From: Nitrospira japonica
GTDB taxonomy: Bacteria; Nitrospirota; Thermodesulfovibrionia; UBA6902
Direction of reading: 5' to 3'
DNA length: 53,478 bases
Assembly (NCBI GenBank): GCA_020723105.1
Contig: DYJL01000020.1
Span: 1-53,478, forward strand
Within the stretch, counting starts at the first letter, position 1. Each line of letters begins with the position of its first letter. The notes below the pieces were generated by a model. That model was not told where the DNA came from, ran no database searches, and worked only from the letters and a program-made list of their open reading frames with translations. Made by a program: the position numbers and the translations under genes. Of the stretch, positions 1 to 51,823 are shown piece after piece.

Positions 1-2
1 AA

Positions 3-179
3 AGAAACCGTTCGGACAAAACCGGATTAACTGTTCGAATAGACCGGATTAGGCAGTTAAGGGAAGAAATTGAAAAAAATGGAATTAGTGAAGGTACACT
101 TAAGCATATTAAATCATTAATTACGATACATGGAAACGAGACGTTAAACAATTTTCTTGAAGGGTTTTTGAAAAAATAA
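3..179 (+). CDS. 3' end of an unknown gene cut by the window edge
   Basis: An open frame enters from the left edge and stops with TAA at 177-179, giving about 58 C-terminal residues that are basic and helical (ending NFLEGFLKK). No family is recognised. It lies on the same strand as the element genes that follow. The first 50 bases contain the octamer CCGGATTA twice, so the extreme left part could be repeat sequence read through rather than selected protein. A longer sequence to the left would settle whether the frame continues. Confidence 0.4.
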   Translation, partial: RNRSDKTGLTVRIDRIRQLREEIEKNGISEGTLKHIKSLITIHGNETLNNFLEGFLKK

Positions 180-260
180 TGAAAGTGCGTTTTATGACTT
201 TAGGAATTATTGAAGAAAAAAGTTAAATAAACTGGATTCCCTTACCAGTATAAAAAGGAA

Positions 261-956
261 ATGAAAAAGAAAAAAAGAAATTCTATTTACTGCAAAGCAA
301 ATCATTTTCCGGTTAATAACTTTCAGAAAATCGTTACGGATAAAAAGAACGCCGATACAATAAAACTGTTACTTTTCTTTAACAAGAATCTTGTAACGGA
401 AATTGACAGCATATTAGAGCGAACGCAAAAGCCGATTGATATTATCCCTCATATATTTTTATCTCAAGGGATACAGGTCATTAAAGATGAACCGGGTATA
501 ACAAAAAAACTTACAACTGATATTCAATATTGGAACGAACTTTTAAAACAGAAAACTTTATCCGGCAAGACAGGGCAAATCAGAAAATATAAAAGGGAAG
601 ATGAAAACCGTTTATCACAGTATAAATATAAGCCGGATCATACTTTTTTACAGGCAAGGGGCATCAGAGCAAAAGCGGTATTTAATTACTTTAAAAAGAT
701 AGACGATGATATTGAAAAATCAAAATTGTATCGCTTGACTGCGGAGATAATTCATATATCGGAAAATGTTACCTTTATAGACACAAAAGAGAATCAGGAT
801 AAACTCAGGAAGAACAGAAAGGAACTTAAAAAAAAGTTACCCGGTTTTAAGGACAGCGATTTAAAAGACGATGCGCCGTACAAACCTTTAACTAAGACAG
901 AACTTGACGAACTTCAAAAAGAAATTAAAAATCAGATCGAGCAGTTACCCGCATAA
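261..956 (+). CDS. hypothetical protein of the integrated element
   Basis: This 231-residue lysine-rich protein has no motif I can assign. It starts at an ATG preceded by an AAGGA ribosome binding site (TAAAAAGGAAATG). Its second half is strongly charged and probably helical, with a run of Lys/Arg near residues 180-195, suggesting nucleic-acid or protein contact rather than a membrane role. There is no signal peptide. It sits two genes upstream of the primase-helicase, so a part in replication or early gene control of the element is possible, but this is only position-based inference. Confidence 0.6.
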   Translation: MKKKKRNSIYCKANHFPVNNFQKIVTDKKNADTIKLLLFFNKNLVTEIDSILERTQKPIDIIPHIFLSQGIQVIKDEPGITKKLTTDIQYWNELLKQKTLSGKTGQIRKYKREDENRLSQYKYKPDHTFLQARGIRAKAVFNYFKKIDDDIEKSKLYRLTAEIIHISENVTFIDTKENQDKLRKNRKELKKKLPGFKDSDLKDDAPYKPLTKTELDELQKEIKNQIEQLPA

Positions 957-990
957 ATATCATTATTTCTTCATAGATTAACCCTCAGAG

Positions 991-1344
991 TTGCTTAAAA
1001 AAAGATTTTTTGAAATTTTCAAGCAACATTCAATATTTCCGCTTTTCTCTATGTCAAGATACCTTTCAGAGGTAACAGGAATGGGAAAAGAAAAAGATTT
1101 ACTGATTCATAAACTCGAAATTGCAACGCATGTTTTTCTTCTCTCTAACGAATTTCCCACTCTAAAAAAATTAGATCGAGACATTATTTTTTCATTTAAG
1201 GACACGCCTGAAAACCGGGCCGCAATTGAATTTCATCGAAAGGGCGGGGCTTCTAATGTCAAAGAGTTTTTTGAAAAATATAAGGTGCTTAGAAATTTAA
1301 CCTATACCATGCGGGGAAGCACAGCAAACGGGGGCGGCAAATGA
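991..1344 (+). CDS. small hypothetical protein coupled to the primase gene
   Basis: This frame encodes 117 residues from a TTG start, or fewer from the in-frame ATG at 1051; neither has a strong ribosome binding site. Its TGA stop overlaps the ATG of the primase gene as ATGA (1341-1344), a typical arrangement for translational coupling, which supports a real gene. The product is basic and has no recognised domain. Its place directly ahead of the primase suggests an accessory replication function, an inference from context only. Confidence 0.55.
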   Translation: MLKKRFFEIFKQHSIFPLFSMSRYLSEVTGMGKEKDLLIHKLEIATHVFLLSNEFPTLKKLDRDIIFSFKDTPENRAAIEFHRKGGASNVKEFFEKYKVLRNLTYTMRGSTANGGGK

Positions 1345-3119
1345 ACAAACAGTCCATTTTAGACCGCCTCGACATCAAAGCTTTCTATACCTCTGAATTG
1401 CACTCAATCAGATGGAACGGAAACGGACAGGGCTTAACCCTATGCCCTTTCCATGATGATAAAAAAGAATCTCTTTCAATTAATCAGAAAACAGGGGTTT
1501 TCTTTTGCCATGCTTGCAATGAGACAGGTGATATATTTTCTTTCTATCAAAAAAAGCATAATGTTGACTTTAAAACAGCCTTAAAAGACCTTACTATAAA
1601 AGCAGGATTAAGCGCAGATGCAAAAAAGAAAATAGTCGAGGCTTATGACTATAAAGATACGGATGAAAGGCTTATATTCCAAACAGTGCGTTATGAACCT
1701 AAAGGATTTTCTCAAAGAAGGCCGGACACTAAGAATAAGAGCAGTTGGATTTACAACCTTAAAGATGTTCGTTTGGTCCCTTATAATCTGCCCGAAATTA
1801 TAAAGGCTGACAGCGTAATCATAAGCGAAGGAGAAAAGGACGTTGAAACTTTAAAGGTAATCGGTATAACTGCAACCTGCAACCCAATGGGAGCCGGAAA
1901 GTGGAGACCTGATTATAACCATTACTTTGAAGGCAAGAAAGTTGTGATCGTTCCCGATAATGACAAGTCCGGGAAGGATCATGCATTACAGGTAGCAAAG
2001 AATCTCAAAGGCATAGCTGGAACCGTCAAGATTATTAACCTTCCAGACCTGAAAGACAAAGAGGATATAACGGATTTTCTTAAGGCAGGCGGAACGAAAG
2101 AGAAGTTGATTGAGATTATTGAGGCAACGCCAGAATGGATAGCGGAAGAACCTAAACGCCTCATTGATTCCCTTCTGAAGTGGAACGATATTTTTTCTCT
2201 TGATGTAACAACGGAATATCTCCTTGAAAAGCTGATTCCTAAAAACAGCATAACTCTTTTATTTGGCCGGGGCGGGATCGGCAAAACGTCCCTTTGTATG
2301 CAGATAGCAAGGGCGATTGCAAACGGATTCCCTTTTGATGTTCTGCAAACAATCAAGACGCCGGTTTATTACATAGACTTTGAGAATCCTCTGTCAGTCC
2401 TCAAGGAGAGAGCCGGGAAAATAGGGCAATCAGATAACCTCTATGTATGGCACATTTCAAACGAAATACAGCCTCCGAAATTTGACGGGCATGAATGGGA
2501 GTTATACAAACAGTTGCCTCCGGGATTACTTATTTGTGATACCTTGAGGGCTTCTCACCTTTCAGACGAAAACGATTCAAGACCCATGAGCTTGATCATG
2601 GGAAGGCTGAAAGAACTCCGAGAAATTGGATTTACCATTTTATTATTACACCACACCCCGAAAGGAAACGAAAACACCTTTAAGGGATCGGGGGCCTTAC
2701 TGGATTTATGCGACCATGTGTTAGGGCTTGAAGAAGTGAAAGACCTTGAAGATGCTCCTGTAGAGTTTGACAAACATAACCTTTATAAATTCGGAGTAAG
2801 AATTAAAACTCGTTATGAACCTCATAGCATTTATCTAAATTTCAATCCTGACATCAAGGGATTTGATATTGCCAAGGACCCTGACCTTGAGAAAATGGGG
2901 GCTATCAAGGAACTGCTATTGCAATCGACAGAGCCTTTGAAACAGAAGGATTTGAGAGAAACGGTAAAAAAGGAATTGGACTTTTCAGACAAAGACATAA
3001 GACGGCTTTTGAAAAAAGGAACCGGGCTTTATTGGAATGCCGAGAAAAGCGATAAAAATGCGACTATCTACATACCAATAAATTCAGTTTGTCAGCCCCT
3101 TATATACCCGACAAACTGA
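1341..3119 (+). CDS. CHC2 zinc-finger / TOPRIM primase fused to RepA-like AAA ATPase
   Basis: This 592-residue replication protein joins primase and helicase-type modules. A CHC2-type zinc ribbon is at residues about 33-65 (Cys35, His38, Cys56, Cys59). A TOPRIM segment follows at about 155-250, with SEGEKD around Glu163 and PDNDKSG (Asp206, Asp208). A RecA/RepA-like ATPase is at about 295-470, with a glycine-rich Walker A loop ending GKTS (Lys315, Thr316) and a Walker B LLICD ending at Asp400. The C-terminus looks like a winged helix. Such fusions are used by phages, satellites and plasmids to prime and unwind their own DNA. Its stop is closely followed by a frame-shifted open frame with unusual coupling (see 3082-3435). 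Confidence in the domain calls is high; the exact replicon type is not proven. Confidence 0.9.
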   Translation: MNKQSILDRLDIKAFYTSELHSIRWNGNGQGLTLCPFHDDKKESLSINQKTGVFFCHACNETGDIFSFYQKKHNVDFKTALKDLTIKAGLSADAKKKIVEAYDYKDTDERLIFQTVRYEPKGFSQRRPDTKNKSSWIYNLKDVRLVPYNLPEIIKADSVIISEGEKDVETLKVIGITATCNPMGAGKWRPDYNHYFEGKKVVIVPDNDKSGKDHALQVAKNLKGIAGTVKIINLPDLKDKEDITDFLKAGGTKEKLIEIIEATPEWIAEEPKRLIDSLLKWNDIFSLDVTTEYLLEKLIPKNSITLLFGRGGIGKTSLCMQIARAIANGFPFDVLQTIKTPVYYIDFENPLSVLKERAGKIGQSDNLYVWHISNEIQPPKFDGHEWELYKQLPPGLLICDTLRASHLSDENDSRPMSLIMGRLKELREIGFTILLLHHTPKGNENTFKGSGALLDLCDHVLGLEEVKDLEDAPVEFDKHNLYKFGVRIKTRYEPHSIYLNFNPDIKGFDIAKDPDLEKMGAIKELLLQSTEPLKQKDLRETVKKELDFSDKDIRRLLKKGTGLYWNAEKSDKNATIYIPINSVCQPLIYPTN

Positions 3120-3435
3120 AAAACAGAACTTCACAGAGCCTGAAACGCTGACAAACAGGACATCATTAACCACTGAAAAAACCATTGATACTCTTGAGGT
3201 TGTCAGTTTTTCAGAGGGTGTTTGCCAAACTGAAAAACAGGAAGCCGTTGCCCTTGTACGGATAGAAGCAAAAAATGATCCGGGAACGAGCAAATTAACC
3301 CTTCCAAGATGCCCTAAAAATCATGCTGTCCGGGGTGACTGTAACGAGCGATTCGATGTAAAAGTAAGACCGGGCATTCAAGGACTGCAACGCTTCTGCA
3401 AGGTTAATAACTCATTTTGTGAGGTATCAGGATGA
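3082..3435 (+). CDS. start-less open frame after the primase, possibly its +1-frameshift extension
   Basis: This frame is open for about 117 codons and lies +1 relative to the primase, overlapping its last 38 bases. It has no ATG, GTG or TTG anywhere in frame, yet its TGA stop overlaps the ATG of the next gene as ATGA (3432-3435). The predicted tail carries a cysteine/histidine set (CPKNH, then three further Cys), reminiscent of a small zinc-binding unit. Either ribosomes shift +1 near 3082-3116, or a single-base indel (for example in the CCCC run at 3096-3099) has split the gene, or the assembly has an error there. A purely non-coding reading is less likely given the coupling and the open length. 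Confidence 0.45.
   Translation: MQFVSPLYTRQTEKQNFTEPETLTNRTSLTTEKTIDTLEVVSFSEGVCQTEKQEAVALVRIEAKNDPGTSKLTLPRCPKNHAVRGDCNERFDVKVRPGIQGLQRFCKVNNSFCEVSG
3085..3240. repeat. iteron-like repeats downstream of the primase-helicase
   Basis: Five related short motifs built on CTGACAAACTG and CTGAAAAACAG occur in about 155 bp: 3085-3095 (minus), 3110-3126 (plus), 3147-3158 (plus), 3199-3214 (minus) and 3226-3240 (plus). The 15-base word CAAACTGAAAAACAG is repeated exactly at 3112-3126 and 3226-3240. Clustered repeats beside a replication gene can be initiator-binding iterons. The exact copies are 114 bp apart, hence in frame, so protein-level repetition (QTEKQ twice) is an alternative. Confidence 0.4.
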
Positions 3436-3635
3436 ACACGCACAAACTCATGAATGACAAGTTGAAAGAGCTTCCAAAAATAATTAAAAATTCGTCTGCA
3501 ATAACAGACACACGCCTGAAAGACATTACGACGGGGCTACAACAAGCCTACTATCTCGATAATTTTGAGCAGTTTAACAAATCCATTAACACAATTAAGG
3601 TACTTCTTTCGAGGGATCAATATGAATTGTTTTAA
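3432..3635 (+). CDS. small hypothetical protein
   Basis: This frame encodes 67 residues, charged and probably all-helical, with no recognised family. Its ATG overlaps the stop of the preceding start-less frame as ATGA, so it is probably translated by coupling. It lies between the replication genes and the terminase-like gene. No signal peptide or membrane segment is visible. A role cannot be assigned. Confidence 0.5.
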   Translation: MNTHKLMNDKLKELPKIIKNSSAITDTRLKDITTGLQQAYYLDNFEQFNKSINTIKVLLSRDQYELF

Positions 3636-3662
3636 AATCAATGACATAGGAGGGCGTATCGC

Positions 3663-3749
3663 ATTCTTGGCAATTCTAATCCCTACAGCGATGGCGTAAC
3701 CACGAAAAAACTTATGTCATATTTCAACAGCAAAAATTCGGGGGAATAA
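3663..3749 (+). CDS. possible tiny gene with non-standard start
   Basis: A short frame ending LMSYFNSKNSGE stops with TAA immediately before the ATG of the terminase-like gene (TAAATG). A strong AGGAGG lies at 3648-3653, and the only codon at suitable spacing in this frame is ATT at 3663, a rare start. The preceding in-frame stop is TGA at 3642. The Shine-Dalgarno sequence and the tight junction are suggestive, but the frame is only 28 codons and the start is irregular. It could instead be a degraded gene or leader. Confidence 0.2.
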   Translation: MLGNSNPYSDGVTTKKLMSYFNSKNSGE

Positions 3750-4076
3750 ATGAAGGCACCAAAACATTTACGGAAAGCCGGGAAAAAGCACTGGCAACAA
3801 ATCATTAACGAATTTGAAATAAACGATAGTGGAGGGGCTTCAATCCTTCAGGTTGCTTGCGAATCACTTGACCGCCTGACTGAAATAAGAGAGGCCATAG
3901 ACAAAGAGGGTGTTACACAGTTAGACCGTTTCTCTCAAACCCGACCGCATCCACTGCTTGCAGAAGAGCATAAAGCGAAAGTTGCCTTTTTATCAGCAAT
4001 GAAAAACTTGAATTTAGACATCACACCAGAAAACAATTTTATAGGCCGACCACCGGGAAACAGCAAGAAGGTGTAG
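3750..4076 (+). CDS. P27-like phage terminase small subunit
   Basis: This 108-residue protein resembles the P27 family of terminase small subunits: an N-terminal PKHLRKAGKKHW segment, a helical middle with LQVACESLDRL, the RPHPLLAEE turn, then a KVAFLSAMKNLNLD helix, ending in a basic GRPPGNSKK tail. The family recognises packaging-site DNA and presents it to the large terminase ATPase. A normal prophage has the large terminase right downstream; here the following genes are small unrelated proteins. A lone small terminase is what phage satellites use to divert helper capsids. The family call rests on pattern memory, so a profile search is needed. Confidence 0.6.
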   Translation: MKAPKHLRKAGKKHWQQIINEFEINDSGGASILQVACESLDRLTEIREAIDKEGVTQLDRFSQTRPHPLLAEEHKAKVAFLSAMKNLNLDITPENNFIGRPPGNSKKV

Positions 4077-4077
4077 C

Positions 4078-4404
4078 ATGAAACGAAAGAATCGGAAAAT
4101 AAAAAAACAAGGATTACCAGATCATCTTTTAAATTATTTCTTAAACGGCAACATTCCAGAAAATGAGCATGAGGCGTTTGAAATCTTTTTAATGCTCGAT
4201 GAACGAAAAAAAGAACTTTGGAAAATAAACAGGGAAAATATTTTGAAACAATGGATAGCGGAACATCCGTTTACCAGACCCTTCGGATTTTGGCAGTTTG
4301 AGGATTTGCCGGAACGAAGAGACGAAAATGAACCCGAAAAAGAATTTCTTGAACGGTATGATCTTTTAACCAATGCCGAAAAATTACAAGAAAAAAACAT
4401 TTAA
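4078..4404 (+). CDS. phage-type small protein with RPFGFWQFE motif
   Basis: This frame encodes 108 residues and starts two bases after the stop of the small terminase gene. A central RPFGFWQFEDLPE motif resembles the Arg-Pro-aromatic-Trp-x-Phe-Glu motif common in small proteins beside phage terminase genes, whose function is not known. The rest is highly charged with a helical N-terminus. No zinc site or membrane segment is visible. The tight spacing implies one operon with the terminase-like gene and suggests a packaging-related or regulatory role, without proof. Confidence 0.55.
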   Translation: MKRKNRKIKKQGLPDHLLNYFLNGNIPENEHEAFEIFLMLDERKKELWKINRENILKQWIAEHPFTRPFGFWQFEDLPERRDENEPEKEFLERYDLLTNAEKLQEKNI

Positions 4405-4421
4405 AAAATGGAGGTAGAAAT

Positions 4422-4988
4422 ATGAAAGATTTAAAGGATTTGTCAGCAGAAAAAATCATAAACATTCTAAAAAGTAACCGGCTTACAAAAAAAATTCTAC
4501 AGGAAGCAGAGCAGGCGGAAGAACTGGTTAAGGAGCGAATAAAGATAAAACAGGAAACCGAAAAACTGAAAAAAGAAAAAGCAGAGAAATTGACAGAGTT
4601 AAAAGACCTTGTGGATTTAAGGCAGTTTGAATTTAACGAGGCAAAAGAAGCATTAAAAAAATCTCAAAAAGCATGGAGCGAAACGAACAGTCTTTTTATG
4701 AGTGAGAGTTATCACTTTGATAACGAAATTTTAAAACGGGAAAGTTTTCTCATGCAGACTGCACCGGTTAACCTTAAAGAAAAATTAAGCTATCTCCGGG
4801 ACAAACATGAATCTGTCAGGCATTCACAAATTGAAATAGGGAATGACATGGTCAATAAGCAGTTTTATAACAAAATTGTGAATTTCTCAAATGTGAATGA
4901 AATTTTAGAAAAAATGGCGGGCATCGAATCGGAAATTAAAAAAACTGAATTTAAAATCCTTAATCCTTCAACAGAAAGCGAGGTGTAA
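4422..4988 (+). CDS. coiled-coil hypothetical protein
   Basis: This 188-residue protein starts at an ATG preceded by GGAGGT (GGAGGTAGAAATATG), a strong ribosome binding site. Residues about 35-90 are nearly all Glu, Lys, Gln and Leu in a heptad-like pattern, predicting a long coiled coil, and a second helical region lies near the C-terminus. There is no signal peptide. In position it follows the packaging-type genes of the element, where scaffold or capsid-size proteins occur in satellites, but nothing in the sequence identifies it as one. Confidence 0.55.
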   Translation: MKDLKDLSAEKIINILKSNRLTKKILQEAEQAEELVKERIKIKQETEKLKKEKAEKLTELKDLVDLRQFEFNEAKEALKKSQKAWSETNSLFMSESYHFDNEILKRESFLMQTAPVNLKEKLSYLRDKHESVRHSQIEIGNDMVNKQFYNKIVNFSNVNEILEKMAGIESEIKKTEFKILNPSTESEV

Positions 4989-4989
4989 A

Positions 4990-5196
4990 ATGGAAAAAGC
5001 AATTTATCAAAAAACAGGAAAAAGCGGAGCGGAGAAAAGTTATGAAGCAGGCATCGAAGCGGGCAGGCCAACTAAATTTTCTTTTGACCACAGAACAGGG
5101 AAAGGGATTATCGTAAAAGATAATCCACTTGCAAAAAAAAGACGCAAACTAAAAGAGCTTAAAAAGAGGCAATTAAAATATTTAAAAAGCCGGTAA
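4990..5196 (+). CDS. small basic hypothetical protein
   Basis: This frame encodes 68 residues. It begins one base after the stop of the coiled-coil gene, so it is likely translated with it. It has an AGIEAGRPTKFSFD segment and a Lys/Arg-rich C-terminus (KKRRKLKELKKRQLKYLK) that suggests nucleic-acid binding. It is the last gene before the long inverted repeat at 5203-5265, probably the end of this transcription unit. Confidence 0.5.
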   Translation: MEKAIYQKTGKSGAEKSYEAGIEAGRPTKFSFDHRTGKGIIVKDNPLAKKRRKLKELKKRQLKYLKSR

Positions 5197-5202
5197 AAAA
5201 AT

Positions 5203-5265
5203 GAGGGCGGGCAGGCGGACAACGTCTATTTAGCGTACTTCCCGGCGTTAATAAAACCCGCCCTC
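5203..5265 (+). terminator. long-loop inverted repeat, possible terminator or structured RNA
   Basis: A perfect 9-bp GC-rich stem GAGGGCGGG / CCCGCCCTC pairs 5203-5211 with 5257-5265 across a 45-base loop. The loop can pair internally (AACG with CGTT). It stands out in an AT-rich setting between the small basic gene and the HTH gene. There is no long T-run after the stem, so simple intrinsic termination is uncertain; an origin or packaging-site structure is another option. Confidence 0.35.
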
Positions 5266-5317
5266 TCATTTAACGAAAAATTATCAGGCTGTCAGATTTT
5301 CAAAAGTTATTTGAAAA

Positions 5318-5638
5318 ATGAAAACAGAACTCGAAGAACAGGACATTGAAGCAATAGCGCAAAGAGTTGTAGAACTCCTGAAACCTTTACTGTTATCAGA
5401 TAACAGTCATACAGAGGATAGGCTTTTAACGGTTAAAGAGCTATCTAAATATACCGGATTATCAAAGCAGTGGATTTACAACAACAAGAAAAAATTAGAA
5501 CCGCAATACCTAAACGGTAAACCGCTTTTCAGGCTTTCAACAATAAATGCCATGCTGAAATCACAGAGAAACAATGATTCTGCATTATGCAATACTCCGG
5601 CCCTGAAAGTCAGAGATTTTAATAAACAAAAAAACTAA
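5318..5638 (+). CDS. helix-turn-helix protein, excisionase/AlpA-like
   Basis: This 106-residue protein has a MerR/excisionase-type winged helix-turn-helix at residues about 36-82: LLTVKELSKYTGLSKQWIYN followed by a short wing and a second helix. Proteins of this type act as recombination directionality factors or as AlpA-like activators in integrative elements. The N-terminus (about 1-30) is an amphipathic helix, possibly for dimerisation. It lies two genes upstream of the integrase, the usual neighbourhood for an excisionase. There is no clear ribosome binding site before the ATG. Which role it plays, excision or transcription control, cannot be told from sequence alone. Confidence 0.65.
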   Translation: MKTELEEQDIEAIAQRVVELLKPLLLSDNSHTEDRLLTVKELSKYTGLSKQWIYNNKKKLEPQYLNGKPLFRLSTINAMLKSQRNNDSALCNTPALKVRDFNKQKN

Positions 5639-5668
5639 TTGACAGTCCCTAACTAAGTTAGATATAAT
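5639..5668 (+). promoter_or_regulatory. sigma-70 promoter with operator palindrome
   Basis: A -35 box TTGACA (5639-5644) and a perfect -10 box TATAAT (5663-5668) are separated by 18 bp. The spacer contains the palindrome CTAACT-A-AGTTAG at 5649-5661, well placed for a repressor. The predicted transcription start, about 5675, falls at the ATG of the XRE gene at 5676. Confidence 0.8.
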
Positions 5669-5675
5669 TGCTGGT

Positions 5676-5906
5676 ATGAAAAACTGGACACCAAAAAATA
5701 TTCTCAACCTCAGAACTAAAATGAATCTGTCTCAACCTGCATTTGGAAATCTTTTAGGTGTCACAGGTAATTATATCTATCTCTTAGAAAAGGGGGTGAA
5801 ACAGGCAAGTAAAACATTAAAGCTGTTACTGGACTGTGTTGAACGGCAGTTCAAAGAAAACGAAAAAGGAAAGGAGAGTAAGAAGCATGGCAACCGGAAT
5901 TTATAA
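5676..5906 (+). CDS. XRE/Cro-CI family repressor of the element
   Basis: This 76-residue protein is essentially one lambda-repressor-type HTH (residues about 8-60; LSQPAFGNLLGVTGNYIYLLEKG). These proteins bind palindromic operators as dimers. The promoter just upstream has such a palindrome between its -35 and -10 boxes, so autoregulation is likely, and since the integrase overlaps its end the repressor probably controls integrase too. The ATG lies at the predicted transcription start and has no Shine-Dalgarno sequence, so the mRNA may be leaderless, as for the cI transcript of phage lambda from its maintenance promoter. Confidence 0.8.
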   Translation: MKNWTPKNILNLRTKMNLSQPAFGNLLGVTGNYIYLLEKGVKQASKTLKLLLDCVERQFKENEKGKESKKHGNRNL

Positions 5907-6939
5907 AAGAAGCTGTATTTACTGGATACGTTACACCGGACCAGACGGAAAGCAAAGGCGTGAATCTTCACACAGTGAAAAGTTTGATGTTGCAAAGTCA
6001 TTACTGATTGATCGTGAAAAATCCATTGAAAGGGGAGACGTTATTGAGAAAATCCCGGATAAGACTTTCAGGGAACTATCAGAACATTATTTAGACTGGA
6101 TTAAAGGCCGTCAGAAATCAGCAAGGACAAAAGGCTACCTCATAGGGCAGTTGTTATCAGTGTTCGGAGATACACAATTAAAAAGATTTACCACTGCATC
6201 AGTTGACCAATTACAGACCGATTTAATTAACAAAGGCTACAAACCGGCCAGTAATAACAAAATCTTGAATGTGTTAAAGCATGCATTCAATAAGGCATTA
6301 GAATGGAACTGGATTGCAGAGGACACTTTAAAGAGGATCAGAAAAGTAAAACCTTTGAAAGATACCGGAAAGCGGTTAAGATATCTTTCTAAGGAAGATT
6401 GTCAGACGCTTGTAAATGCTTGTCAGGGTTTAACAAGGGCAATCGTAATTACTGCACTCAACACAGGTATGAGAAAAGGTGAAATTTTGTCTTTAAAATG
6501 GGAACAGGTTGATTTAAAAAATAACCGTATCCTGTTAGACAGAACAAAGAACGGAAAGCGCCGGGAACTACCGATTAACAACACATTGAAGGAAACCTTA
6601 CAGGGTTTAACAAGACGGTTAGATATTCCCTATATGTTCTTTGATGCTGTTACAGGAAAGCCTATTAAGGATGTTAAGCGCAGTTTTCAGACAGCATTGA
6701 AAAGAGCAGGGATAAGAGACTTTCACTTTCACGACCTTCGACATACCTTTGCAAGTCATTTAGTCATGGCCGGAGTAGATATTACAACGGTCTCACGTTT
6801 GTTAGGACACCAGACCTTGACAATGACTTTACGGTACAGTCATTTATCAAAGGGACACCTTGATAATGCGGTGAACCTTTTAGACCGAACACTTAACGAA
6901 AATACAATTAGCACAAAATTAGCACAATTTGGGCGGTAA
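5887..6939 (+). CDS. int: tyrosine recombinase / integrase
   Basis: This 350-residue phage-type integrase carries the catalytic set: Arg196 in LNTGMRKGEI, Lys221 after LLDRT, His282 and Arg285 in HDLRHTF, His308 in LLGHQT and the nucleophile Tyr317 in LRYSHLS. The N-terminus (MATGIYKRSCIYW) is the usual arm-binding domain, followed by a SAM-like core-binding domain at about 60-150. I place the start at ATG 5887, which has AAGGAG at 5871-5876, rather than at an upstream ATG inside the XRE gene; the two genes overlap by 20 bp. The gene ends 36 bp from the 3' end of tRNA-Val, the probable attachment site, so it should catalyse integration there. Confidence 0.95.
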   Translation: MATGIYKRSCIYWIRYTGPDGKQRRESSHSEKFDVAKSLLIDREKSIERGDVIEKIPDKTFRELSEHYLDWIKGRQKSARTKGYLIGQLLSVFGDTQLKRFTTASVDQLQTDLINKGYKPASNNKILNVLKHAFNKALEWNWIAEDTLKRIRKVKPLKDTGKRLRYLSKEDCQTLVNACQGLTRAIVITALNTGMRKGEILSLKWEQVDLKNNRILLDRTKNGKRRELPINNTLKETLQGLTRRLDIPYMFFDAVTGKPIKDVKRSFQTALKRAGIRDFHFHDLRHTFASHLVMAGVDITTVSRLLGHQTLTMTLRYSHLSKGHLDNAVNLLDRTLNENTISTKLAQFGR

Positions 6940-6975
6940 GCTGAATGGGTGAGACTGGTAAGTTATTGAAAAATA

Positions 6976-7050
6976 TGGTAGGCGATGCTGGGATTGAACC
7001 AGCGGCCTCTTCCGTGTGAAGGAAGCGCTCTCCCACTGAGCTAATCGCCC
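6976..7050 (-). tRNA. tRNA-Val (CAC)
   Basis: The minus strand gives a complete cloverleaf: acceptor GGGCGAT paired with ATCGCCT (a G-U at the first pair), anticodon stem CTTCC/GGAAG with loop TTCACAC and anticodon CAC, T-arm with GGTTCAATCC, and an encoded CCA at 6976-6978. It reads GUG codons for valine. Its 3' end faces the integrase, 36 bp away, so the 3' half (about 6976-7010) is the likely attachment core, with the second copy expected beyond the left window edge. Confidence 0.96.
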
Positions 7051-7125: not shown

Positions 7126-7565
7126 AGTTGACTTCTCGTTCAGGGTATTCTCCCTGAGTCAAGCGAATTTGTGGATTAATGTAAGGCAATAAAAAGGGGC
7201 AGGAATTGATTGGTTCTGGATATCAGTTGGTGTTATAAGTAGAGGCAATTTAAAAACTGCTTCAGGCTGTCCAAACAGCTTGATAAGCCTGAACGCCTTA
7301 GCTCTTGCAACATTTGAAAGTGAATCAATAAATCCGCTGCCGGTTCTTTACCGTCTTTATCTCTGTAGTATTCAACTGTCCAGTGCACGATATATTATAA
7401 CAAGATTGTTATTACAGGGAAAGCCTCTTCGAATTGGAGAAGGTTTAATTGGCTTCTTTAGTCAACCAATAAAACCAATTCAACTAACCGAACTGTTTAT
7501 TCAGTGGTTTTATATAAATTCTTATGGTATAACAGGACACAAAGACATATGGAAGGGGAGATACT
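7126..7565. other. intergenic region with inverted repeats
   Basis: No convincing gene is seen here. It holds three inverted repeats: TCAGGG-TATTCT-CCCTGA inside an outer TTGACT/AGTCAA pair (7128-7162); TTCAGGCT paired with AGCCTGAA enclosing GGCTGT-CCAA-ACAGC (about 7266-7293); and the perfect palindrome ATAACAA-GA-TTGTTAT (7397-7412). The last could be an operator for the PPC-domain gene. The others may be terminators or remnants of an earlier integration. Confidence 0.4.
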
Positions 7566-15742: not shown

Positions 15743-15912
15743 ATTATTCAAATATTTTACTATGGAGGAAGCATGGCTCGAAAACATCTTGAAAGCGATA
15801 AAATTATTGGATGTTAAGTTTTGGCTCTTGGATTTACAGAGTATATTTATTCTGTCATCACTAAGGTATCGCGCAATATGTTTTTGAGCCATGCTTCCTC
15901 CATAGTAATAAG
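15743..15912. repeat. family B MITE-like repeat, copy 1
   Basis: Terminal inverted repeats of about 30 bp bound it: TACTATGGAGGAAGCATGGC near 15759 and its complement GCCATGCTTCCTCCATAGTA near 15908. The centre is AT-rich and has no reading frame of note. It is almost identical over about 140 bp to copy 2 at 31930-32110. It separates two glycosyltransferase genes. Confidence 0.85.
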
Positions 15913-31034: not shown

Positions 31035-31055
31035 AATTTTCTCTTTTTAACCCCG

Positions 31056-31230
31056 ATTATTCATAAATTTTATTTGGAGCAAGCCACGGTTTAAAAACAT
31101 CTTGAATGCGATGGATTTCTTGAATCTTAAATATTGAATCTTGAATTTACAGAATGTATTTTTTCTGTTTTCGCTAAGGTATCGCTCAATATGTTTTTTC
31201 ACCATACTTGCTCCAAGTTTATGAATAATA
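31056..31230. repeat. family B MITE-like repeat, copy 3 (diverged)
   Basis: Outer arms ATTATTCATAAA and TTTATGAATAAT, then TTGGAGCAAGC and its partner GCTTGCTCCAA, frame an AT-rich centre with the AAAACATCTTGAA and TAAGGTATCGC words of copies 1 and 2. It lies after guaA. The rest of the spacer to 31410 shows no clear gene; an AAGGAGGTGAG at about 31306 precedes only tiny frames. Confidence 0.75.
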
Positions 31231-31410
31231 TGGGTTAATAATTTCCCTTCATAAAAAGTTCACAGTTATCATGTATAAATTTGCATGACGTCCAGATTAA
31301 AAAAGGAGGTGAGTCAGCTACTTGCGTGGACTTGTGAAAAGTGTTATATAGAAATTACATCAAATAGGCGACAGGTTTTGGTTTTTATTTTTTAATGAAA
31401 GGAGGTTCCA

Positions 31411-31827
31411 ATGAAAAAAATAATTTCAATGCTGATGGTTCTGTCATTGCTGACTCTGACAGTCGGCTGTACACAGTACCATGCCCAGGGAGCCGGAGCC
31501 GGCGGAGTTATAGGCGGAATCGCCGGAGCGCTTCTTGACAAGAAAAATCCATGGAGAGGCGGGGTAGTGGGGGCTGTGCTTGGCGGTATTGCAGGAGCCA
31601 CACTTACTGATATCTCTACGAGAGCTTCACAGGAAGCGGCGCAACAGAACAGACCTGTTGAATACAGGACCACAGATGGCCGCGGTGTTTATCAGGCCTA
31701 CCCGTTGGAGTATAATGAACAAACAAAATGCCACAAGGTTCAGGAAAGGGTATGGGAAGACGGAAAACTTGTAAAGGACCAGATAAAAGAAATTTGTGAG
31801 GGAGAAAAAACAGAGAGAAAGTATTAA
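31411..31827 (+). CDS. glycine-zipper lipoprotein
   Basis: This 138-residue protein has a lipoprotein signal peptide ending in LTLTVGC (Cys21 is the probable lipidation site). Residues about 27-70 form a glycine zipper (GAGAGGVIGGIAGALL, then GGVVGAVLGGIAGA) like SlyB/17-kDa antigen proteins that insert into membranes. The C-terminal part is charged and resembles surface-antigen tails. GGAGG precedes the ATG. A strong terminator follows. It is probably an outer-membrane lipoprotein with an envelope-stability role. Confidence 0.8.
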   Translation: MKKIISMLMVLSLLTLTVGCTQYHAQGAGAGGVIGGIAGALLDKKNPWRGGVVGAVLGGIAGATLTDISTRASQEAAQQNRPVEYRTTDGRGVYQAYPLEYNEQTKCHKVQERVWEDGKLVKDQIKEICEGEKTERKY

Positions 31828-31847
31828 GAACAGTTGTGTTTTTACAG

Positions 31848-31878
31848 GGGCTGCATCTTTGCAGCCCTTTTTGTTTTT
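31848..31878 (+). terminator. intrinsic terminator of the lipoprotein gene
   Basis: GGGCTGCA (31848-31855), loop TCTT, TGCAGCCC (31860-31867), then TTTTTGTTTTT: an 8-bp GC-rich stem with a T-run. Confidence 0.9.
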
Positions 31879-31929
31879 CAGGGTTTGTGATAATATTAAT
31901 ACCTGATTTTTTCTTAACTCTTAATCCAG

Positions 31930-32110
31930 GTTATTCATAAATTTTTATTCTGGAGGAAGCATGGCTCAAAAACATCTTGAAAGCGATAAAATTATTGGAT
32001 GTTAAGTTTTGGCTCTTGGATTTACAGAGTATATTTATTCTGTTATCACTAAGGTATCGCGCAATATGTTTTTGAGCCACACTTCCTCTATGATTATGAA
32101 TGATAATATA
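31930..32110. repeat. family B MITE-like repeat, copy 2
   Basis: It has terminal arms GGAGGAAGCATGGCTCAAAA and TTTTTGAGCCACACTTCCTC, outer ATTCATAA/TTATGAAT words, and a centre differing from copy 1 by about five bases in 142. The flanks on both sides read TTAACTCTTAA, either a target duplication or pre-existing heptamer repeats. It fills the spacer ahead of rluB. Confidence 0.85.
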
Positions 32111-32130
32111 GGTTAACTCTTAACTTTCTT

Positions 32131-37460: not shown

Positions 37461-37715
37461 ATGTTATTAATCATCAAACATCTTAAAATTCATTTATGAT
37501 CTTTTAGTAGAAATGAAAGCCTGTTTCAGAATTTCTATAAACGACAAACAATATATTACATTTTTGCTTCGAGCTGTTTTTCTTATTTCTTCTTGACTAC
37601 CCCCTACACCCTATCTCCTATCTCCTAATCCCTTTTCAAAGGTGTCGTATAGAAATTCTTTTACAGCCTTCCATCTCTGCAACTATTGGAACGGAGTTCG
37701 CCATGAATAATGTAG
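37461..37715 (+). repeat. family A repeat, copy 4 (complete)
   Basis: This complete copy begins ATGTTATTAATCATCAAACA, has inverted inner arms CAGAATTTCTATAAACGACA and TGTCGTATAGAAATTC separated by a pyrimidine-rich core (CTACCCCCTACACCC), and ends GTTCGCCATGAATAATG. On the reverse strand the end carries a 22-codon frame starting MANSVPIVAEMEGC and ending RISIRHL. It overlaps the upstream Met codons of the NHL gene. Confidence 0.9.
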
Positions 37716-50848: not shown

Positions 50849-51094
50849 TTAATATGTTATTAATCGTCAAACATCTCAAAATCTATTTAAAATCTTTTTA
50901 CAGACATGGAAGTCTGTTTCAGAATTTCTATAAACGACAAACGACATATTACATTTTTGCTTCAAGCTGTTTCTCTTATTTCTTTTTCCCTACCCCCTAC
51001 CTCCTATCCCCTACTCCCTTTTCAAAGGTGTCGTATAGAAATTCTTCCACAGCCTTCAATGTCTGCAAGTATTGGCACAGAATTCACCATGAAT
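50849..51094 (+). repeat. family A repeat, copy 7 (complete)
   Basis: This complete copy begins AATATGTTATTAATCGTCAA, has inner arms CAGAATTTCTATAAACGACA and TGTCGTATAGAAATTC around a core of CCCTACCCCCTACCTCC, and ends GAATTCACCATGAATAAC. Its last bases hold the ATG of trmJ. Inner arms plus core can fold into one long hairpin. It fills the 346-bp spacer between ubiA and trmJ. Confidence 0.9.
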
Positions 51095-51823
51095 AACTGG
51101 AAAGACAACGTATACTTCGTCCTCGTGGAACCCAGGGAGCCAGGCAATGTCGGCGCTGCAGCGCGTGCAATAAAGAACATGGGTTTTCGTAACATCTCTC
51201 TGGTGAAGCCGCCTTCTCTTGTAAACAGCGAGGCCCGATGGTTTGCGCGAAATGCCCATGACGTCCTGGACTCTGCCGGGATATTTGCCACTATCGGGGA
51301 TGCGATCAGTGATAAAACTGTTGTAGTAGGTGCTTCCCGGAGAACAGGAAGAAAACGAGGAATTTTTATCCATGCTGAACTGGGCGCAGGAAGGCTGTTC
51401 GAGATTGCATCGGCGAATAAAGTCGCTATTCTCTTTGGCAGGGAAGATAAGGGGCTTTATAACGATGAAATTGCGGAATGCGGCTTCCTTATGACTATTC
51501 CATCAAGCAAAGACCAGCCTTCTCTTAATCTGGCCCATGCGGTTTTGATAATAGCCTATGAACTTTCAAAGGCTGAACACAGGGCCGAAGCCGTTGCTTT
51601 CCCGAGACTGGTTAATCACAAAGAACTTGCGCCACTGTTTGAAAGGGCCGAGGAGGCCTTGACACAGCTTGGATATATCCGGCAAAGCGACAAAGATCTC
51701 CGCAAGAAGATAATGCAGAATCTAAAGCACTTCATGGGCCGCGCAGGACTGACGGACTGGGAGTTGAAAATGTTTCACGGAATTTGCAGCCGGATAGAGA
51801 AGAAGGCAGGAAGTAAGGAATAG
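51089..51823 (+). CDS. trmJ: tRNA (cytidine/uridine-2'-O)-methyltransferase, TrmJ-like
   Basis: This 244-residue SpoU-family enzyme has REPGNVGAAARAIKNMGF (motif 1), FGREDKGLYNDEIAECG and IPSSKDQPSLNLAHAVLI (motifs 2 and 3, the SAM knot), length and C-terminal helix as in TrmJ. It methylates the ribose of position 32 in tRNA. The ATG at 51089 lies in the last bases of family A repeat copy 7, and the repeat contains no good Shine-Dalgarno sequence, so the start is set by the repeat end. It ends exactly where the convergent NifA-like gene ends. Confidence 0.88.
   Translation: MNNWKDNVYFVLVEPREPGNVGAAARAIKNMGFRNISLVKPPSLVNSEARWFARNAHDVLDSAGIFATIGDAISDKTVVVGASRRTGRKRGIFIHAELGAGRLFEIASANKVAILFGREDKGLYNDEIAECGFLMTIPSSKDQPSLNLAHAVLIIAYELSKAEHRAEAVAFPRLVNHKELAPLFERAEEALTQLGYIRQSDKDLRKKIMQNLKHFMGRAGLTDWELKMFHGICSRIEKKAGSKE

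Follow-up and report, generated by a model that had tools for sequence, protein, structure and literature searches.

A probable PICI-like phage satellite with its own small terminase at a tRNA-Val gene of a Nitrospirota genome

We regard with high confidence an integrated element of ~7.9 kb at a tRNA-Val(CAC) gene of a Nitrospirota genome as a PICI-like phage satellite; it encodes an integrase of its own, is split by an IS, and very probably relies on the particles of another virus to spread. The window, i.e., the whole stretch of DNA analyzed (53,478 nucleotides), is the entire contig C50 of a genome of 3.13 Mb in 94 contigs, rated 100% complete, and its positions 56-7022 represent most of the element (Table 1). 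This reading follows from attachment sites at which element and native tRNA halves can be told apart, a small terminase (TerS) recognized by profile and fold, the absence of PF03354 and PF05065 from the genome, a sister element with the same layout, low dN/dS and iterons at the same place, and tRNA-bounded lone-TerS relatives, usually with a capsid gene and with no TerL seen. What the sequences show directly is that the element is integrated and has both ends, which genes it carries, that TerL, portal, capsid and tail genes are lacking from it, that its genes are under purifying selection, and that a sister copy and bounded relatives of this signature exist. As expected of phage satellites in general, the element combines genes for its own mobility and for packaging selection without a full set of particle genes.

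Table 1. Features of the element and its attachment site in the window.
Feature	Position	Strand	Remarks
IS right end	1-55		Forms an imperfect terminal inverted repeat with the left IS end, at which contig C6 stops; outside the element proper
Small ORF, 3′ part	56-179	+	Cut by IS; start on C6; 61 aa in sister element
231-aa protein, function unassigned	261-956	+	100% identical in tRNA-Ala element
117-aa protein, DUF5659-like	991-1344	+	E 2.8e-4, below cut-off; 89% identical in sister element
CHC2-TOPRIM-AAA_25 primase-helicase (replication module)	1341-3119	+	CHC2 E 1.6e-15, Toprim_2 1.6e-4, AAA_25 1.3e-23
Primase-helicase C-terminal segment, other frame	3082-3435	+	Single ORF in sister element
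Iteron cluster CTGACAAAC/CTGAAAAAC	3083-3240	both orientations	Putative replication origin
67-aa ORF, no function assigned	3432-3635	+	
Lone small terminase TerS, P27/HK97 type, 108 aa	3750-4076	+	Terminase_4, phrog_83
Small protein after TerS, putative packaging adaptor	4078-4404	+	Family resembles phage TerL N-terminal module
188-aa all-helical protein, long helices	4422-4988	+	Conserved in sister element
68-aa basic protein	4990-5196	+	74% identical in sister element; dN/dS about 0.16
64-nt noncoding stretch	5203-5266		100% identical in sister element (L022 13007-13070)
AlpA/excisionase-like HTH protein	5318-5638	+	HTH_17 E 2.9e-5, below Pfam cut-off; phrog_66 1.1e-5
Small XRE-type HTH regulator	5676-5906	+	Weak match
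Tyrosine integrase	5887-6939	+	PF00589 2.2e-34; 5887 likely start
tRNA-Val(CAC)	6976-7050	-	Attachment gene; adjoins integrase; 3′ half element-derived
Attachment core CGGCCTCTTCCGTGTGAAGG	7003-7022, inside tRNA-Val		Second copy on C6 (L057 5475-5494)

The original prediction had placed the element at the 3′ end of tRNA-Val, which held, and had given it positions 1-6975, which needed correction at both sides: the first 55 bases belong to the IS, and on the right the element extends into the tRNA. To the left, the tRNA 3′ end was indeed found a second time when a genome search with the tRNA region matched the last kilobase of contig C6, where the other end of the element is located ~1 kb left of the window start (IS discounted). 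This end consists of a tRNA-Val 3′ half followed by foreign DNA. The uninterrupted tRNA-Val of another genome of the genus (G399) has exactly the 3′ half found on C6, and the 3′ half in the window differs from that of G399 and is common to an element remnant in a third genome of the genus (G158); the element thus arrived with a tRNA 3′ half of its own, and the native half was displaced to C6, with a crossover within the attachment core. An empty site joining both flanks was not found: the native tRNA of G399 is uninterrupted, but the genes beyond it differ from those on the C6 side.

Read from the native 3′ half, C6 continues with a TumE/HVO_A0114 toxin-antitoxin (TA) pair and then with element DNA 98.6% identical to the sister element, ending with GTTAAG and the IS left end. 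The same six bases recur in the window directly after its 55 IS bases, and an IS insertion that duplicated this 6-bp target accounts for the break of the contig (contig C60 shares this IS end). C6 and C50 are placed next to each other on the strength of the 6-bp duplication, an ORF common to both and the att halves rather than by an IS-spanning read, and a mix-up of left arms between the two elements of this genome is conceivable given that window positions 56-1084 are identical in both. On C6, the left arm contains only TA and small ORFs, and from core to core the element comes to 7,937 bp once the IS is subtracted, shorter than the 10-20 kb first expected.

Just outside tRNA-Val lies the remnant of a Gp49/HigB-type toxin gene (window 7233-7400, 85% to the toxin of the sister element), perhaps the trace of an earlier insertion. 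In G158, an eroded similar element at tRNA-Val (L080 2009-2919) retains the TumE/HVO_A0114 pair. Dispersed short repeats, about 80-94% identical and in both orientations, occur at window positions 15744-15903, 31047-32116, 37461-37710 and 50854-51096; they are probably MITE-like or intergenic repeats, and those at 37461 and 50854 recur on contigs C73 and C7.

Within the element, the integrase, AlpA-like HTH, XRE HTH, CHC2-TOPRIM primase and TerS genes originally proposed are all present on the + strand (Pfam, PHROGs), and every gene from 261 to 6939 is oriented this way, a one-strand layout also seen in the sister element. The AlpA and XRE assignments are weak, which counts against our reading, as does the primase-helicase C-terminus being out of frame (through a frameshift, a split gene or an assembly error). 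In the primase, the predicted CHC2 and TOPRIM domains were recovered, and the third domain, predicted as RepA, matched AAA_25. No match of note to Pfam, PHROG, NCBIfam or PADLOC was obtained for the 231-aa protein. The 188-aa protein occupies the position at which the Kmv42 relative (see below) has its capsid gene, and its single-sequence model consists of a few long helices; it is tempting to speculate that it could be a capsid-assembly or interference factor, and a scaffold role would have this position and modeled shape in its favor, with no support beyond these. As a candidate known phage protein it was rejected (no phage match, no family), and an alignment scan yielded no matches, probably due to a poor pattern.

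When each element was analyzed separately, the most clustered 8-mer fell at the 3′ end of the primase-helicase gene in both, the iterons of the sister element having another sequence there, CTTGTTCCC. This position fits an origin right behind pri-rep, the arrangement described for PICIs (PMC6092414), and the iterons would mark a putative origin. Different iterons, together with different TerS, would let both satellites share one cell. Downstream, the 64-nt noncoding stretch is identical between the two elements although synonymous sites of the surrounding genes are near saturation, and a three-way-junction fold is predicted for it (z -4.55), making it a candidate packaging site, regulatory site, RNA, or product of a recent micro-exchange. 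A known RNA was rejected (no Rfam match), and the stretch was not found in 395 other genomes of the phylum (≤3 mismatches allowed) or in viral contigs.

The packaging argument centers on TerS. As the original prediction proposed, the 108-aa product is of P27 type: it scores above the cut-off of Pfam Terminase_4 (PF05119, 26.4 bits for a cut-off of 24.7) and matches phrog_83 (1.6e-7) and TIGR01558 (2.2e-9, yet below the equivalog cut-off). Its predicted model (pLDDT 84.7) retrieved HK97 TerS as the top five PDB chains (probability 0.77-0.99, with weak E-values of 0.11-0.34) and a TerS among viral models (BFVD, 6.8e-5), so that profile and fold both indicate a P27/HK97-type TerS. The ~7.9-kb element (window part and C6 left arm) lacks genes for TerL, portal, capsid, tail and lysis, and a full prophage with such genes farther left, the alternative considered at the outset, is thus not borne out by the C6 stretch. 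PF03354 (TerL) and PF05065 (capsid) are moreover absent from the whole genome as assembled (controls worked), from which we conclude that an HK97-type helper is not resident (the search for a resident helper was confined to these two HK97 families). That the sequence data examined yielded neither a helper phage nor an excised circle or particle is a further point against the satellite reading.

The small protein encoded after TerS occurs in the window, the sister element, Kmv42 and most relatives. Its family profile aligns to residues 11-78 of the TerL of a phage contig (L070), ahead of the ATPase (score 47.7, P 3.7e-6), whereas none of 70 other proteins from these loci scored above 19.3. Based on this resemblance, the protein may be a detached TerL N-terminal module and is a candidate adaptor, its role in packaging being speculative.

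A related element is integrated at tRNA-Ala(GGC) on contig C73, with its far end on C7. Gene order is shared between the two, from the 231-aa protein through a 117-126-aa protein, the primase-helicase, TerS, the small protein, a 184-188-aa protein, the 68-aa protein and the AlpA-like and XRE regulators to the integrase, and the C73 left arm includes a Gp49/HigB-type TA pair. Identity is 44% for TerS and about 57% for the integrase; the TerS, adaptor, AlpA and integrase genes have reached saturation at synonymous positions, and dN/dS ranges from 0.11 to 0.31 for genes where it was measurable. To judge from these comparisons, the element genes are under purifying selection, i.e., selected genes rather than debris. 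One stretch of 1,029 bp (window 56-1084) is 100% identical to C73 although the elements are otherwise diverged, which points to a recent exchange between them or an assembly effect.

These data bear on the possibility of a decayed prophage remnant, in which integrase, replication genes and TerS would have been retained by chance. Lone phage genes at tRNAs are often remnants, a true eroded one exists at tRNA-Val in G158, and the primase C-terminus is frame-shifted; however, two copies with the same gene order and low dN at saturated or high dS, intact boundaries at both ends, and the presence in other genomes of complete bounded elements with this TerL-less set of genes render such a remnant very improbable. 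Two copies, purifying selection and bounded relatives instead portray a recurrent and selected element, as expected for a phage satellite.

Relatives of this satellite were recovered from genome and viral scans with a three-sequence TerS alignment (a two-sequence alignment gave no matches, probably owing to a poor pattern). TerS relatives were detected in Nitrospirae bacterium Kmv42, from the same class as the window genome, in 8 of 395 genomes of the phylum of ‘Deltaproteobacteria’ HGW-1 (HGW-1 and seven others), and in contigs of IMG/VR. In many of them, direct repeats of tRNA sequence form the boundaries (53 bp around a 10.5-kb element in L062; 48 bp in L098, 64 bp in L102, 49 bp in L103 and 60 bp in L104), and they carry an integrase and TerS, usually with an AlpA-like HTH, a primase and an HK97-type capsid, the latter found in L062, Kmv42, L098, L102 and L103. 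No TerL was seen in the stretches examined of lone-TerS relatives, and PF03354 was absent from the four relative source genomes or records searched whole; the phage contig L070 is the only locus in which TerS is followed by TerL and portal. In a TerS tree, satellite and phage sequences were not separated.

Some loci differ in what adjoins TerS. A tape-measure-like tail protein directly follows TerS and adaptor in L100 (6597-8849), L069 (3449-5638) and L104 (3734-7342, with weak tape-measure evidence); L100 also has a capsid gene and L069 a gene for a neck protein; neither TerL nor portal was seen at these loci, and satellites of this kind may set their own tail length. In the Kmv42 element, a direct repeat CTGCGYGATGTAG that occurs four times between the adaptor and capsid genes (L030 3000-3180), spotted by eye, may represent TerS-binding iterons. 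On plasmid pMNOD03 of Methylobacterium nodulans (L106, 6970-9321), a P4-family primase lies beside a lone P27 TerS, possibly a plasmid-borne satellite; the 94-aa protein after this TerS was rejected as an adaptor by the profile.

The primase-helicase, iterons and TA modules of the window element are also plasmid-like, and with the lone TerS on pMNOD03 would suit a non-viral integrative element (a cryptic plasmid or integrative mobilisable element) whose TerS-like protein serves as a DNA-binding regulator only. Profile searches found no relaxase among the element genes, however, TerS retains a downstream adaptor resembling the TerL N-terminus, and a capsid gene adjoins TerS in most relatives, all of which make a non-viral element very improbable. 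Within the satellite reading, we tentatively consider, as a possibility short of an even chance, a separate family of tRNA-integrated satellites, hosted by Nitrospirota and the HGW ‘Deltaproteobacteria’ phylum, that redirect packaging with their own TerS and a detached TerL N-terminal module. This module would plug the satellite TerS into the helper motor or titrate the TerS of the helper, and members would add their own capsid, their own tape-measure protein, or neither (as in the window element).

The life cycle that we propose, with helper dependence, induction, origin function and packaging inferred, would run as follows. An incoming helper phage would induce the satellite, which its integrase and AlpA-like protein would excise and its primase-helicase would replicate from iterons at the 3′ end of that enzyme's own gene. 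Helped perhaps by the TerL-N-like adaptor, the satellite TerS would then steer the helper TerL and procapsid to satellite DNA, and helper particles would carry it into new cells.

Satellites of this kind are known; the variant and the host phylum (Nitrospirota) look new. A literature search, with preprints and most subscription papers outside its range, found none joining phage satellites with Nitrospirota or Desulfobacterota, the one co-mention of satellite and phylum terms having an abstract that concerns HipA kinases; priority for a Nitrospirota satellite is not certain. Phage satellites have so far been characterized mostly in a few cultivated groups (staphylococci, enterobacteria, Pasteurellaceae and vibrios), and a bounded satellite with a sister copy and capsid- or tape-measure-bearing relatives extends them to uncultivated environmental bacteria. 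The relatives form a graded series with which to ask which particle parts a satellite supplies itself, and the TerS-adaptor pair offers a direct biochemical handle on how a satellite captures a foreign packaging motor.

Among known systems, cfPICIs have their own packaging and portal gene set. They share an HK97-type capsid with relatives L062, Kmv42, L098, L102 and L103, whereas we did not see the packaging and portal set, and a capsid gene is missing from the window element itself. HK97-type phages with P27-family TerS have the same TerS fold (HK97 TerS being the top solved structure), but the window element is without their TerL, portal, capsid and tail genes. PICMIs are likewise minimal satellites with int, alpA and a primase but no capsid genes; they insert at fis and use other primase families, and no terminase is named for them (PMC10803314), whereas the window element sits at tRNA-Val rather than downstream of fis and has its own TerS.

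Closest are the PICIs, which have int, a regulator, pri-rep-ori and sometimes terS (PMC6092414). Like SaPIs, EcCICFT073 and PmCI172, the window element has an integrase, an AlpA-type regulator, a primase module with putative ori, and terS, and is devoid of lysis, tail and TerL genes (PMC6092414); the PICI trio of integrase, replication module and master regulator is thus present, the regulator weakly so. It differs by its TerL-N-like adaptor after TerS and its Nitrospirota host, and the capsid-bearing EcCICFT073 and PmCI172 are resembled by the relatives with a capsid gene, not by the window element. A canonical PICI of the Gammaproteobacteria/Firmicutes family, which would narrow our reading rather than exclude it, could account for the int, AlpA-like, pri-rep-ori order, for terS and for the capsid gene in relatives (PMC6092414), but is unlikely given one-way genes without a divergent regulator pair, a size of 8 kb vs. 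12-15 kb, and a sister-element TerS only about 34% identical or less to phage-collection TerS. Since the divergent regulatory pair by which PICIs are defined, with int opposite the replication module, is absent and 7,937 bp falls below the ~12-15 kb of PICIs (PMC6092414), we file the element as PICI-like rather than as a strict PICI, a label that the original prediction had fairly chosen.
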